In this document: positions 27,916 to 31,887 of the stretch, one piece after another
Numbering within the stretch: the stretch's first letter is position 1
Layout: the number at the start of each line of letters is the position of its first letter
Source: Candidatus Roizmanbacteria bacterium GW2011_GWA2_35_19
GTDB taxonomy: Bacteria; Patescibacteriota; Microgenomatia; UBA1406; GWC2-37-13
DNA length: 56,383 bases
Direction of reading: 5' to 3'
NCBI GenBank assembly: GCA_000990565.1
Contig: LBQC01000001.1
Span: forward strand, 1 to 56,383
Notes under the pieces: generated by a model
The model's input: the letters and a program-made list of their open reading frames with translations, nothing else
Databases searched by the model: none
Told to the model about the DNA's origin: nothing
Program-made: the position numbers and the translations under genes

Positions 27916-29169
27916 TCATTTTCTTGGAGGTATCTTTTCAAATCCGACCATAGATTGAAGGACTTTAGGTACGAGGATACTTCCGTCTTTCTGTTGATAA
28001 TTTTCAAGTATAGCTATAAGGACTCTAGGTGAGGGGATAGCCGTGTCATTAAGGGAAAAACAATAATCGGTTGAGCCATCCTTTTTTCGGCATTTTATTT
28101 TTAATCTTCTTGTCTGAAAGTCGCCCATGATAGAATTTGAAGCGATTTCCCCGTATCCTTTTCGATATGGCATCCAAATCTCTGTATCATACTTATAAAT
28201 CTGCGGTTCACCCATATCACCAGTACACATGAGCATTCTTCGATACGGGATATTCAGTTCTTCCAAAATTTCCTCAGTATTTGTTTGTAATTCTTCATGT
28301 AATATTTTTGCTTCTTCTATATTATTTTTAGCAATTATCACCTGCTCAACTTTCCAAAATTCGTGTAATCGGTAAAGTCCTTTCAGGTCTTTACCATATG
28401 ATCCGGCCTCGCTTCTAAAGCACGGAGAGAAGGCAACGAACTTCTTAGGGAGATCTTTTTCATTTAATATTTCATTAGCATAATATGCCGTAACTGGGAT
28501 TTCTGCCGTTGCGGATAAATACGAATCTTCATCATTAAGCTTATATACTTCATCTTTTCCCCATGGAAAATGACCTGAACCAAAAAGAGTAAATCCTTTA
28601 ACAATAGCTGGGGCAATGATTGGAGTGTAGCCTTTTTTTACTAGTTTTTGAAGCGCGTAAAACAATATTGCGATATGAAGTTGAGCGGCTTGATTTTTAA
28701 GAAAATACCCTCTGAAACCTGAAGTTTTTACTCCACGCTCCAAATCAAATAGATCTAGACTTAGCCCAAGTTCAATATGCGATTTTGGTTCGAAATCCAT
28801 TTTGGAAATTTTTCCCCACTTTTTTACTTCAACATTTCCAGCTGCATCAGCTCCAACTGGGACTTCATCTAAGGGGACGCTTGGAACGTATGAGAGTAGA
28901 TTTGTTAATTGCTGATTGCTGATTGCTAATTGCGCTTCTAATTTTTTAAGTTCTTCTTTAATTGTCTTACCACGTCTAACGATCTCCGGGGTTGGCTTAT
29001 TTTTCCCGGCCTTATTTCTTTCTTCACGTAAAATCTGGATTTTGGAAATAAGATCACGACATATATCATCGAGTTTTAAAATCGAATCAATATCAACTTT
29101 GCGGTTTTTATTTTTAGCCGCCTCAATGACCTTATTTTTATTGGCGCGAATGAAATCTATTGATAGCAT
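27916..29169 (-). CDS. serS: Seryl-tRNA synthetase
   Basis: Charges tRNA-Ser. 417 residues: an N-terminal coiled-coil arm (about 28-95), then the class II core with TAEIPVTAYYANEIL, the motif 2 region FRSEAGSYGKDLKGLYRLHEFWKVEQV, and motif 3 SLNDTAIPSPRVLIAILENYQ. The arm contains a GCTGATTGC word repeat (about 28904-28933) read as QLAISNQQL. It starts 22 bp after serBA with no terminator between, so it should share the serine-responsive promoter and attenuator. Confidence 0.95.
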   Translation of the reverse strand: MLSIDFIRANKNKVIEAAKNKNRKVDIDSILKLDDICRDLISKIQILREERNKAGKNKPTPEIVRRGKTIKEELKKLEAQLAISNQQLTNLLSYVPSVPLDEVPVGADAAGNVEVKKWGKISKMDFEPKSHIELGLSLDLFDLERGVKTSGFRGYFLKNQAAQLHIAILFYALQKLVKKGYTPIIAPAIVKGFTLFGSGHFPWGKDEVYKLNDEDSYLSATAEIPVTAYYANEILNEKDLPKKFVAFSPCFRSEAGSYGKDLKGLYRLHEFWKVEQVIIAKNNIEEAKILHEELQTNTEEILEELNIPYRRMLMCTGDMGEPQIYKYDTEIWMPYRKGYGEIASNSIMGDFQTRRLKIKCRKKDGSTDYCFSLNDTAIPSPRVLIAILENYQQKDGSILVPKVLQSMVGFEKIPPRK

Positions 29170-29191: not shown

Positions 29192-31087
29192 TTAATACAA
29201 TATTCTGAACTTAATAGTTTCAGGAATTTTTTTTAATCTATCGATAGCTTTCTGTGGATATTGTTTGTTAACATCTGTTATCACATAACCAATATCCTCG
29301 TTAGTTTTTAAATATTGCCCCTCGATATTAATATTGTTTTCACCCAAAACACTATTGATTTTGGCTAAAATTCCAGGGACATTTTGGTGAATGTGAATTA
29401 AACGATGAAAATCTTTTTGCTGAATCAATTGAATGTTTGGAAAATTAACACTAAGCATCGTGTTCCCAGTATTGACATTTTCAATAATTTTTTTAGTAAC
29501 AAATTCTCCAATGTTTTTTTGAGCCTCTACAGTATTTCCACCGATATGAGGAGTAAGAACAACGTTAGAAAAATTCTGAAGCTGGCAGTTAAATATTTCT
29601 TTATTTGTTTTTGGTTCATTGGGGAAAACGTCTATAGCGGCTCCAGTAATTTTTTTATTTCTTATATTGTTAGTTAGAGCTTTTATATCAGTAATAAATC
29701 CACGGCTCGAATTCAAAAACAATACGCCATCTCTCATTAATTTAAACTCCGCTTTGCCTATCAAGTTTTTATTAGCTGCTCTTCCATCAACATGAAGGGT
29801 GATAATATCAGCTTTCTTTAACAGCTCCTGAAGCGTTTCACATTTTTTAGCATTACCGAGAGCTAGTTTATCGATGATATCATAAAAATAAACTTCCGTT
29901 CCTAAATTCTCTGCTAAAACTGAAAGCTGAGATCCAACATTACCATAACCAATAATTCCTAATTTTTTCCCTCTTATTTCATAACAATTTTTTACTGACT
30001 TATCCCAAATATTTTTATGCATTTTTGTATTTTTTTCAAATATTTTTCGACTAAGCATAATTATTTCACCGATTATTAATTCAACAACGCTTCTTGTGTT
30101 GCTATATGGTGCATTAAAAGTGATAATTCCGTTTTGTGAAGCTGTTCTTAAATCGATTTGATTAGTACCAATACAAAAAGCGCCGATTACCAATAATTTT
30201 TTTGCTTTAGCTAAAACTTCATATGTAACTTTAGTACGAGATCTTATTCCCAATATAGAAATATCGGCAATTTTTTTTATCAATTCATCTTCATTTAAAG
30301 CGTTTGGTAGAGTTTCGACCTGATAACCCTCGTTAATAAATAAATCGACTGCTGCTTGATCAATATTTTCCAATAATAAAACCTTTATTCGATTTTTTGG
30401 ATAAGAATAGGATCGGGGGAGATGAAGTAAGTACAAAAATTCATCAAAATTTGGCAGTACATAATCGGCCTTTTTAATCACAGAATCTCTTTTCACATTT
30501 TCACAGAAAACAAAGAACTTATCTGATAACCCGACTTTTTTTATTTGGTAATCTGTATAACTATCACCAATGACATAGATTTTTCCAGGTAAATTTAGAG
30601 CTTTTATTTGCTTAATTTTTCCTTCGTCTTGTGACAATAGATTTTTTTTATCAAAACCAATAATTTTACCTCGGTAATCAAAAATAAATTCGTTCGCGAA
30701 AATATTATTTTCGCTAATTCCTAAAGGTATAAATAAAGGCATAATGTATTCTCTAAATCCGCCTGAAACGATATAAATGTTATTAGAGTATTTTTTAAAA
30801 AATTCTTTATTTCGGGCAATTGAAACAGTGATTTTTCGTTTAAGTAGCCTTACTAATTTGCTTAAATCATTTTTATTTGCACTAATCAATTTAATTCTTT
30901 TTTTGAGAGATTGATTGAAAGGAATCTTACCCTCCATTCCAGCCTTCGTTATTTTTTTTATTTTTTCTAAGATTTCTTTTTTTCTTAGATTTTTTTGCAA
31001 AGCAATATTGGCCAATTCATCCAATGCCTCAACCTGTACAAAAGTACTATCAAAATCTATTATAAAAAATATTCTATTTTTATACAT
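29192..31087 (-). CDS. serBA: Fused phosphoserine phosphatase-phosphoglycerate dehydrogenase (SerB-SerA)
   Basis: 631 residues holding two serine-pathway enzymes. Residues 1-225 are a HAD phosphatase: DFDST (nucleophile D11, acid D13), IVSGGFREYI and GDSYTDY. Residues about 233-631 are D-3-phosphoglycerate dehydrogenase: GIRSRTKV, the NAD motif GYGNVG (380-385), FLNSSRG, AAIDVFPNEP and TPHIGGNT, then a C-terminal ACT domain (HIHQNVPGILAKINSVLGENNINIEG in two blocks) that probably senses serine. The protein covers the first and last steps from 3-phosphoglycerate to serine; serC is not in the window. Its Shine-Dalgarno GGGAGG is the 3' arm of the leader terminator. Confidence 0.92.
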   Translation of the reverse strand: MYKNRIFFIIDFDSTFVQVEALDELANIALQKNLRKKEILEKIKKITKAGMEGKIPFNQSLKKRIKLISANKNDLSKLVRLLKRKITVSIARNKEFFKKYSNNIYIVSGGFREYIMPLFIPLGISENNIFANEFIFDYRGKIIGFDKKNLLSQDEGKIKQIKALNLPGKIYVIGDSYTDYQIKKVGLSDKFFVFCENVKRDSVIKKADYVLPNFDEFLYLLHLPRSYSYPKNRIKVLLLENIDQAAVDLFINEGYQVETLPNALNEDELIKKIADISILGIRSRTKVTYEVLAKAKKLLVIGAFCIGTNQIDLRTASQNGIITFNAPYSNTRSVVELIIGEIIMLSRKIFEKNTKMHKNIWDKSVKNCYEIRGKKLGIIGYGNVGSQLSVLAENLGTEVYFYDIIDKLALGNAKKCETLQELLKKADIITLHVDGRAANKNLIGKAEFKLMRDGVLFLNSSRGFITDIKALTNNIRNKKITGAAIDVFPNEPKTNKEIFNCQLQNFSNVVLTPHIGGNTVEAQKNIGEFVTKKIIENVNTGNTMLSVNFPNIQLIQQKDFHRLIHIHQNVPGILAKINSVLGENNINIEGQYLKTNEDIGYVITDVNKQYPQKAIDRLKKIPETIKFRILY

Positions 31088-31187
31088 AATAAAAAACCTC
31101 CCTTCCGGGAGGTTGAATTTCTTAAATTAAAAACTAATCGTTATACTTCAACCTCCCGTTAAGCGGGCTAGAGGATGAAGAAGGTGA
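31088..31187 (-). promoter_or_regulatory. Serine-responsive transcription attenuator of serBA-serS
   Basis: Four segments, read on the minus strand. Segment 1 (31180-31164) lies across the Ser codons and pairs with segment 2 (31158-31146): CTTCA/TGAAG, CCT/AGG and CCCG/CGGG around a CTTAA loop. Segment 2 CGGGAGGTTGAA (31158-31147) is a perfect 12-bp match to segment 3 TTCAACCTCCCG (31117-31106), the antiterminator. Segment 3 overlaps AACCTCCC (31114-31107), which pairs with GGGAGGTT (31102-31095) around a GGAA tetraloop and is followed by a T-run, an ideal intrinsic terminator four bases before the serBA ATG. A ribosome stalled on Ser codons would cover segment 1 and favour 2:3. Confidence 0.9.
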
Positions 31188-31220
31188 ATAATTATTAGTA
31201 AAATCTACTCGATCGTTCAT
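31134..31220 (-). CDS. Serine-rich leader peptide of the serBA attenuator
   Basis: 28 codons starting at ATG 31220 and ending TAG. Codons 12-18 read S-P-S-S-S-S-S, using TCA, TCT, TCA, TCC, TCT and AGC, so both serine codon families are sampled. The ATG lies nine bases after a TATAAT -10 box with no room for a Shine-Dalgarno, so the mRNA is probably leaderless or nearly so. The stop codon is ten bases past segment 2. A ribosome finishing the ORF would therefore cover part of segment 2 and let the terminator form. It is too short to be listed by routine gene callers. Confidence 0.85.
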   Translation of the reverse strand: MNDRVDFTNNYSPSSSSSPLNGRLKYND

Positions 31221-31229
31221 ATTGTGATA

Positions 31230-31260
31230 ATTATAACATAGATAACAATTTTTTTGTCAA
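31230..31260 (-). promoter_or_regulatory. Promoter of the serBA leader
   Basis: On the minus strand, TTGACA (31260-31255) and TATAAT (31235-31230) match the sigma-70 consensus exactly, with a 19-bp spacer, slightly long. The -10 box overlaps the TAA stop of the upstream rdgB gene, so the promoter is hidden in the end of that gene. Confidence 0.75.
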
Positions 31261-31887
31261 TCTTTTTAAAGCTTTTAATCTATGATTAACTTCCAGGTGT
31301 TCTTGTTCAGTTAATTCGTCATAATATTTATTAAATTCATCAACTATAAAAAGAGCGCGGAATGGATAACCATTAGTCGGTCTTCCGGTTGGCTTTTCAG
31401 CAATATATCCCTTTATTTTCTCCTGTTCGAATACAACTACACCCCTGGGGTGGAGTTGGAGCTTATTGGAACGACCTAGACTCACCCCTGGGGTGGGGGC
31501 GTAAAAACAAATACATGTTTCCAAATAAGCGGTTCTTTGGGGTTGTTTAACATTTTTAAGATTTAGGAGAGTGTAGGCAATAAGCTCTTCGTCTGACGCT
31601 TCATAACCCGGCCAGCGCTTTGATTTGACTCCAGGCCCATTATTTAGATAGGGGATAACTAAACCGCCATCGTCAGCAATGGTTGGCAAACCTGTCAAAT
31701 TGCTGTAAAACTTAGCTTTAAGCAATGAATTTTCTTCAAAAGTTTTTCCAGTTTCCTCAGGCTCCTTCTCTACCCCGACGTCGTTTAAGCTAAGAAGAGT
31801 GATCCCTAATTCTTCTAATTTTTTTAAACCAAATCTTAATTCTTCAAGCTTTGCTGGATTATGAGTGGCAACTAGTATATTTTTCAT
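31231..31887 (-). CDS. rdgB: Non-canonical purine NTP pyrophosphatase (RdgB/HAM1)
   Basis: Hydrolyses dITP, ITP and XTP to monophosphates, keeping deaminated purines out of nucleic acids. 218 residues: ATHNPAKLEELRFGLK, FEENSLLKAKFYSNLTGLPTIADDGGLVIPYLNNGPGVKSKRW (in parts) and the late GRPTNGYPFRALFIV. The usual GFGYDPxF is changed to NGYPFRALF, and before it an insert of about 19 residues (PTPGVSLGRS... to LHPRG) is encoded by a repeat at 31440-31496. Activity is likely but the altered loop is a caution. The serBA promoter overlaps its stop codon. Confidence 0.85.
   Translation of the reverse strand: MKNILVATHNPAKLEELRFGLKKLEELGITLLSLNDVGVEKEPEETGKTFEENSLLKAKFYSNLTGLPTIADDGGLVIPYLNNGPGVKSKRWPGYEASDEELIAYTLLNLKNVKQPQRTAYLETCICFYAPTPGVSLGRSNKLQLHPRGVVVFEQEKIKGYIAEKPTGRPTNGYPFRALFIVDEFNKYYDELTEQEHLEVNHRLKALKRLTKKLLSML
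31440..31496. repeat. Two copies of CACCCCTGGGGTGG inside rdgB
   Basis: Identical 14-base near-palindromes at 31440-31453 and 31483-31496 bracket an insert in rdgB. A related sequence, CACTCCAGGAGTGG, lies in glmS at 53497-53510. Both genes gain the peptide TPGVSL there, in a loop absent from usual family members. Confidence 0.7.

Follow-up and report, generated by a model that had tools for sequence, protein, structure and literature searches.

The window analysed here, a stretch of 56,383 nucleotides from Candidatus Roizmanbacteria bacterium GW2011_GWA2_35_19, carries on its minus strand two genes of serine metabolism behind a short leader. The first of them, serBA (29192-31087), encodes a phosphoserine-phosphatase-like HAD domain fused to phosphoglycerate dehydrogenase and an ACT domain as identified by Pfam, and in NCBIfam it matches PRK11790.1 (3e-186) and serB (2e-19). 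It is followed after a gap of 22 nt by serS (27916-29169), a seryl-tRNA synthetase with the Pfam domains tRNA-synt_2b and Seryl_tRNA_N. These matches back the functions, serine synthesis and charging of tRNA-Ser, that a first-pass annotation of this DNA had given to the downstream genes; the other elements that it had listed for a serine attenuator are likewise all present on the minus strand, where it had placed them. The closest named homologue of serBA is found in a Candidatus Roizmanbacteria genome (L033; 81% identity). The SerB-SerA fusion is also ~55% identical to proteins of Bacteroidota (L034-L037 and L040), which suggests that it has moved between Bacteroidota and this CPR lineage.

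Transcription of the leader can be assigned to a promoter at 31230-31260 on the minus strand, in which TTGACA (31260-31255) is separated by a 19-nt spacer from an extended -10 element, TGTTATAAT, with TATAAT at 31235-31230; a promoter scan with spacers of 16-18 nt skipped it. The leader ORF (31134-31220, minus strand, start at 31220) has homologues in relatives and comprises 28 codons and a TAG stop, MNDRVDFTNNYSPSSSSSPLNGRLKYND*. Serine occupies six of its seven codons 12-18 (codons 12 and 14-18), as the first-pass annotation had noted. Such six-in-seven runs are rare, not unique, with two in the six frames of the whole window versus 0-1 in shuffled sequences. Because the ATG lies only 9 nt past the -10 box and no Shine-Dalgarno sequence precedes it, the window leader ORF is probably translated as a leaderless mRNA. 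The same arrangement recurs in most relatives, where a -10-like hexamer begins 12-16 nt 5′ of the leader ATG, often with TTGAC farther upstream; most leaders have no Shine-Dalgarno sequence, so these ORFs too are probably leaderless, and a clear Shine-Dalgarno sequence stands ahead of the ATG in L093, L096 and L097. Farther upstream, inside a Ham1/rdgB-like gene, a palindromic 14-mer, CCACCCCAGGGGTG, occurs in two exact copies 43 bp apart (31440-31453 and 31483-31496, minus strand; chance expectation 0); the pair looks like a small inserted repeat.

Between the leader codons and serBA, the RNA can form alternative hairpins. Segment 2 (CGGGAGGTTGAA, 31147-31158, minus strand) pairs with segment 3 (TTCAACCTCCCG, 31106-31117, minus strand) over 12 perfect base pairs with a predicted energy of -19.4 kcal/mol, and none of 200 dinucleotide shuffles does as well (shuffle mean -6.6). 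Segment 3 in turn overlaps the 5′ arm of an intrinsic terminator, AACCTCCC-GGAA-GGGAGGTT, whose 8-bp hairpin lies at 31114-31095 and which spans 31091-31114 with its T run (minus strand; -13.7 kcal/mol). The leader region contains two terminator-like sites versus 0.4 in shuffles, and the GGGAGG in the terminator's 3′ arm could double as the Shine-Dalgarno sequence of serBA. The leader stop codon is 10 nt past segment 2. On the 2:3 pairing, the terminator and the stop codon the first-pass annotation was accurate; its 1:2 hairpin, with one arm on the serine codons, is less clear-cut. Segment 1 (31163-31181, minus strand) does overlap those codons and can pair with segment 2, but the duplex (-13.4 kcal/mol) is equalled or beaten by 26 of 200 dinucleotide shuffles and is thus plausible, not significant by itself. 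At equilibrium, the window leader RNA is predicted to adopt the 2:3 antiterminator when untranslated (-34.6 kcal/mol); for termination to be the default in the absence of a ribosome, 1:2 would have to form while transcription is under way.

To relate these structures to translation, we calculated from equilibrium energies how likely the terminator hairpin is to form at every position of the ribosome, whose leading edge was set 15 nt from the first P-site base. In the window leader, the predicted probability stays between 0.00 and 0.02 while the P site is at codons 7-17 and is at least 0.94 from codon 18. Serine codons 14-18 are decoded with the P site at 13-17, and so the run ends where the predicted switch closes. 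In the mean of 25 leaders with a terminator, predicted termination bottoms out at 0.33-0.35 for P-site codons 13-15 and has climbed to 0.96 by codon 18; a dip at the same codons is seen in front of non-serine genes (L062, L064, L093 and L102), and three leaders (L026, L073 and L098) show no clear dip. Segment 2 begins 62.2 ± 2.0 nt past the ATG in 20 leaders, versus a standard deviation of 11.2 nt for the position of the stop codon. Since the spacing of segment 2 holds steady while the stop codon shifts, it is the core of the peptide, and not the stop codon, that serves as the fixed reference.

The homologous leaders come from a profile search of the genomes of the window's family (72 genomes in our collection), order and class, which added copies to those first seen ahead of serBA or serB in relatives (for example, MNDRVDFTNNYSPSSSSCPFFGRLK, MNPRVDFYNNYSPCSSSSPISGRLMNSG, MNQRVDVLNNYSPHSSSAAGIYGETLFLEIRN and MNPRVKILNNYSPQSSSGLYLAGRLTRW). 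The resulting set comprises 38 distinct leaders and one degenerate copy, from families f1, f2, f18, f25 and f31 of the class; they are related by descent, so that P values overstate their independence. Three genomes (G004, G390 and G789) carry two leaders ahead of different genes. In a phylum-wide sample of 380 genomes, the leader was found solely in the window's own genome, and searching the orders to which G390 (82 genomes) and G236 (15 genomes) belong gave no leader beyond those already found. Not every related gene has one: serBA-like genes at L007, L009 and L010 are without the leader, as are the Bacteroidetes serBA homologues (L034-L040). The first-pass annotation had made its reading depend on the serine run and the alternative pairing being conserved in homologous leaders, and both are kept in other Microgenomatia. 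It is on this conservation that confirmation of the elements chiefly depends. The degenerate copy (L067 in G045, position 1501; MNPRVDILNNYLLQ*) is without Ser12-Pro13 and lies 210 nt 5′ of a NUDIX gene; it is perhaps a decaying leader.

Alignment of the 38 leaders reveals a conserved peptide. Its core is codons 1-13 (31182-31220, minus strand), MNxRVxxxNN[YF]SP, in which N2, R4, N10, S12 and P13 are invariant, N9 is present in 37 of 38, residue 11 is Tyr or Phe, and not one indel falls between the start codon and P13. The underlying codons are free to vary: entropy at third positions is 1.32 bits versus 0.64 and 0.46 at first and second positions, and Arg4 is encoded by AGA as well as by CGN, with Ser12 always TCN. 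The ratio pN/pS is 0.25 over codons 2-13 (bootstrap 0.22-0.27) and 0.04 over codons 9-13; outside the core it is 0.70 (codons 14-18) and 0.93 (codons 19-22). Low pN/pS together with variable third positions indicates that selection is acting on the leader peptide itself, and not merely on its codons or on the RNA. To our knowledge, such conservation is not expected of residues outside the control codons of classical attenuators. We therefore propose a second function for the core, which in the simplest case would be to slow or arrest translation near S12-P13, since the geometry is fixed at that place. Conservation at the peptide level, at a fixed distance from a putative stall site, is what arrest peptides display.

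Downstream of the core, serine codons are concentrated where the predicted switch is decided. In the window these are codons 14-18, TCT TCA TCC TCT AGC (31167-31181, minus strand). In long leaders ahead of serB or serS, serine fills 61 of 95 positions at codons 14-18 (64%) and 10 of 178 from codon 19 onwards (6%), the latter close to the 6.3% of four proteins encoded in the window. The fraction at codons 14-18 is 12 of 35 (34%) in long leaders of other genes; in short leaders it is 4 of 13 for serB and 2 of 20 (10%) for other genes. The 73 serine codons at these positions in long leaders are divided among TCY (36), TCR (20) and AGY (17), and Leu, Phe and Pro codons rich in C and U are rare; the use of AGY and the rarity of these other codons argue for selection for serine, as opposed to a side effect of a CU-rich hairpin arm.

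The leaders differ in how they would pass on the ribosome's position. An intrinsic terminator follows 25 of them, and 12 are short, with a stop 2-5 codons past P13, few serine codons and no intrinsic terminator; the core thus persists where both serine cluster and terminator are gone. Spacers of the short leaders are rich in C and poor in G (C 0.22 and G 0.09 versus C 0.15 and G 0.18 in long leaders). At tnaC, the stalled ribosome shields a Rho site (PMC8429421), and by analogy the short leaders may use Rho. One leader, L092, lacks an intrinsic terminator and also shows no switch: a translational version that sequesters the Shine-Dalgarno sequence was considered and rejected, as that sequence is predicted to be paired at every ribosome position. 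Two further features of the region between leader and gene were observed. A T-rich motif, approximately TTTTAT(C/T)A(A/G)TT, lies between the leader stop and the gene in L022, L027, L056, L063 and L067, of the short class. At L025 (1381-1500), terminator-like hairpins occur in tandem, with the leader's own 1:2 hairpin and T run preceding a second terminator before serB.

The genes behind the leaders extend beyond serine synthesis. In addition to serB and serBA, they include a serS-like gene (named from its sequence) behind that for a Methyltransf_28 protein (L104). Folate genes are represented by folC at L061, L062 and L073, and at L106 by folC followed by an amidotransferase-like gene and a glyA-like gene (serine hydroxymethyltransferase, again named from sequence). 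A methanogen-type thymidylate synthase resembling TIGR03283 lies behind the leader at L057, L064, L066 and L089; two of these four proteins have an MtrA-like N-terminus, weakly similar to subunit A of tetrahydromethanopterin methyltransferase. Transporters of the Vut_1 family follow the leader at L056, L060, L063, L093 and L105, and have as operon partners folC (L109), a DHFR/RibD_C protein with a CofE-like gene (L111), or a CofE-like ligase (L108). CofE-type ligases stand in for FolC in some bacteria. The company of folC, DHFR-like and CofE-like genes suggests that this family, annotated for a queuosine precursor, may here transport a precursor of folate or pterin. Three leaders are outliers, with a nusA-infB operon (L107), a gene for a weakly FGase-like protein (L112) or one for an NlpC/P60-like protein (L102) behind them. 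As judged from these annotations, the common theme of the targets is serine, folate and one-carbon units.

We consider it reasonably probable that the window contains a serine-responsive attenuator of serBA-serS built around a conserved core that resembles an arrest peptide. According to this model, a ribosome would begin the leader ORF, which is probably leaderless, behind the RNA polymerase. If Ser-tRNA were short, it would stall with one of the serine codons 14-18 in the A site and cover segment 1, so that segment 2 could pair with segment 3; terminator formation would be blocked and serBA-serS transcribed. If Ser-tRNA were plentiful, the ribosome would move beyond codon 18 and disrupt 2:3, and the terminator would form. 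The core would act as a module of the nascent peptide by which the ribosome is slowed or arrested near Ser12-Pro13, at the same decision point; in relatives, this module occurs, with or without added serine codons, ahead of serine, folate and thymidylate genes. Charging of Ser-tRNA is the most likely signal at serBA-serS, given the serine cluster at the decision point, the operon that follows it and the conserved alternative hairpins. For the core module, given its presence ahead of all three kinds of gene, the signal is probably serine or a linked one-carbon or folate state; it may sense a metabolite, or it may just hold the ribosome until the polymerase arrives.

This locus shares its logic with the trp-, his-, thr-, leu- and phe-type attenuators: a run of control codons in a leader ORF, competing 2:3 and 3:4 hairpins, and an intrinsic terminator just ahead of genes for the same amino acid and its tRNA synthetase. 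The codons are clustered for the amino acid that the operon makes, in an ORF whose translation is predicted and whose frame is conserved; the antiterminator and terminator hairpins are mutually exclusive and are predicted to switch as the ribosome reaches codon 18; and the genes downstream make or charge serine, joined in relatives by folate genes. What differs here is the amino acid, the CPR host, the probably leaderless ORF and the 13-residue core outside the control codons. Rfam scores for the known leaders are far under their gathering cut-offs (Trp_leader, 19.1 bits against 41; Phe_leader, 21.2 against 55). With TnaC and SpeFL the leaders have in common a short peptide conserved in amino-acid sequence and position, control by the ribosome's place on the leader and, in the short versions, possible Rho-like termination; they differ in having no evident sequence similarity to either, in the serine cluster after the core and in a ligand and an arrest that are putative. 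Elsewhere, serine T-boxes and THF riboswitches regulate some serS or ser genes and folate genes; here, unlike those, the conserved part is a translated ORF, and neither appears among the matches to the leader region with E values of up to 1. Across the whole window, Rfam at gathering score returned one tRNA and no riboswitch, T-box or leader, and the leader peptide has no match at curated thresholds in Pfam or NCBIfam. The serC RNA motif (RF00517), a predicted cis-regulatory element that is named for a serine biosynthesis gene and whose ligand is unknown (PMC3766115), is a separate family and was not detected in the window.

Attenuator leaders have been described for Trp, His, Leu, Thr, Ile/Val and Phe (PMC3766115), and reports of leader peptides come from Proteobacteria, Actinobacteria and some Firmicutes (PMC2965389). 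In line with the first-pass statement that no serine leader peptide is known from CPR bacteria, we found in the open-licence literature no serine attenuator, no NNYSP leader and no CPR leader peptide, a search that could miss a subscription-only report. A version with serine codons in CPR bacteria would take attenuation to a new amino acid and to a deep, uncultured lineage. Judging by its homologues, the window attenuator is part of a larger family of leader peptides, and a leader that is conserved as a protein and common to folate and thymidylate operons suggests that one such family coordinates serine and one-carbon metabolism. The leader and its target are short and self-contained, and so the idea lends itself to tests in vitro that need no culture of the organism.

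How much of this requires the core can be judged by weighing the alternatives. The first-pass annotation described a classical trp-type serine attenuator, and the anatomy, the serine codons at 14-18 and the conserved alternative pairing agree with that description, but it does not capture the 13-residue core, the folate, thymidylate and Vut_1 relatives, or the short leaders with few serine codons and no terminator. If the serine codons alone mattered, the folate and thymidylate genes would share the leader because serine is a one-carbon donor, which would fit the enrichment at codons 14-18 in long leaders of serine and non-serine genes alike, the invariant TCN-coded Ser12 and a window run that spans exactly the antiterminating positions. 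Counting codons, however, needs neither the near-absence of amino-acid change at codons 9-13 nor an invariant N2, R4 and N10, and short leaders that end in NNYSPHL*, NNFSPQV* or NNYSPQR* keep the core with one serine codon; we regard this simpler reading as unlikely. It is somewhat easier to entertain, although still doubtful, that the leader is a ligand-responsive arrest peptide of the TnaC or SpeFL kind for a folate or one-carbon metabolite, with the serine codons secondary. A fixed 13-residue core under peptide-level constraint, the folC, glyA, thymidylate synthase, DHFR-like and CofE-like targets, and C-rich, G-poor spacers suited to Rho-dependent control like that of tnaC (PMC8429421) would all be expected of such a peptide; the strong serine enrichment at the decision point of long leaders would not. 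As a tentative extension, the core could be a new metabolite-sensing arrest peptide for one-carbon status, possibly via folate or via the formyl group on the initiator Met, and could tie together the synthesis of serine, folate and thymidylate across Microgenomatia in a dispersed regulon of leader peptides, to which serine clusters were added where serine is made.

The serine-responsive attenuator with its arrest-like core can also be set against further readings. An intrinsic terminator is unremarkable alone, and some serBA-like genes of relatives do without the leader, as might be expected of an ordinary constitutive terminator after a spurious, unregulated ORF; peptide-level selection, conserved alternative pairing and a recurrent set of metabolic genes contradict this, and we give it almost no credence. 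Formylation sensing was also considered, and fmt is present in most genomes of the family, so that its presence does not discriminate. NAY codons (Asn, Asp, Tyr and His) are abundant in the core, some targets are annotated as queuosine precursor transporters and those at L056 and L063 match TIGR00697, all of which would suit a sensor of queuosine modification. Yet Phe takes the place of Tyr11 in 11 of 38 leaders, queuosine genes are a minority among the targets, and no tRNA-guanine transglycosylase (TGT) gene was detected in the leader-bearing genomes G022 (91% complete) and G033 (93%) or in the less complete G054, G040, G042 and G017; the Tyr-to-Phe changes and these genomes disfavour queuosine sensing, which we hold to be very unlikely. 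The profile match of the tRNA-guanine transglycosylase is split in two in many Microgenomatia, as in genome G000 (contig C25, 14412-15665), and the split looks like an insertion near profile position 92.
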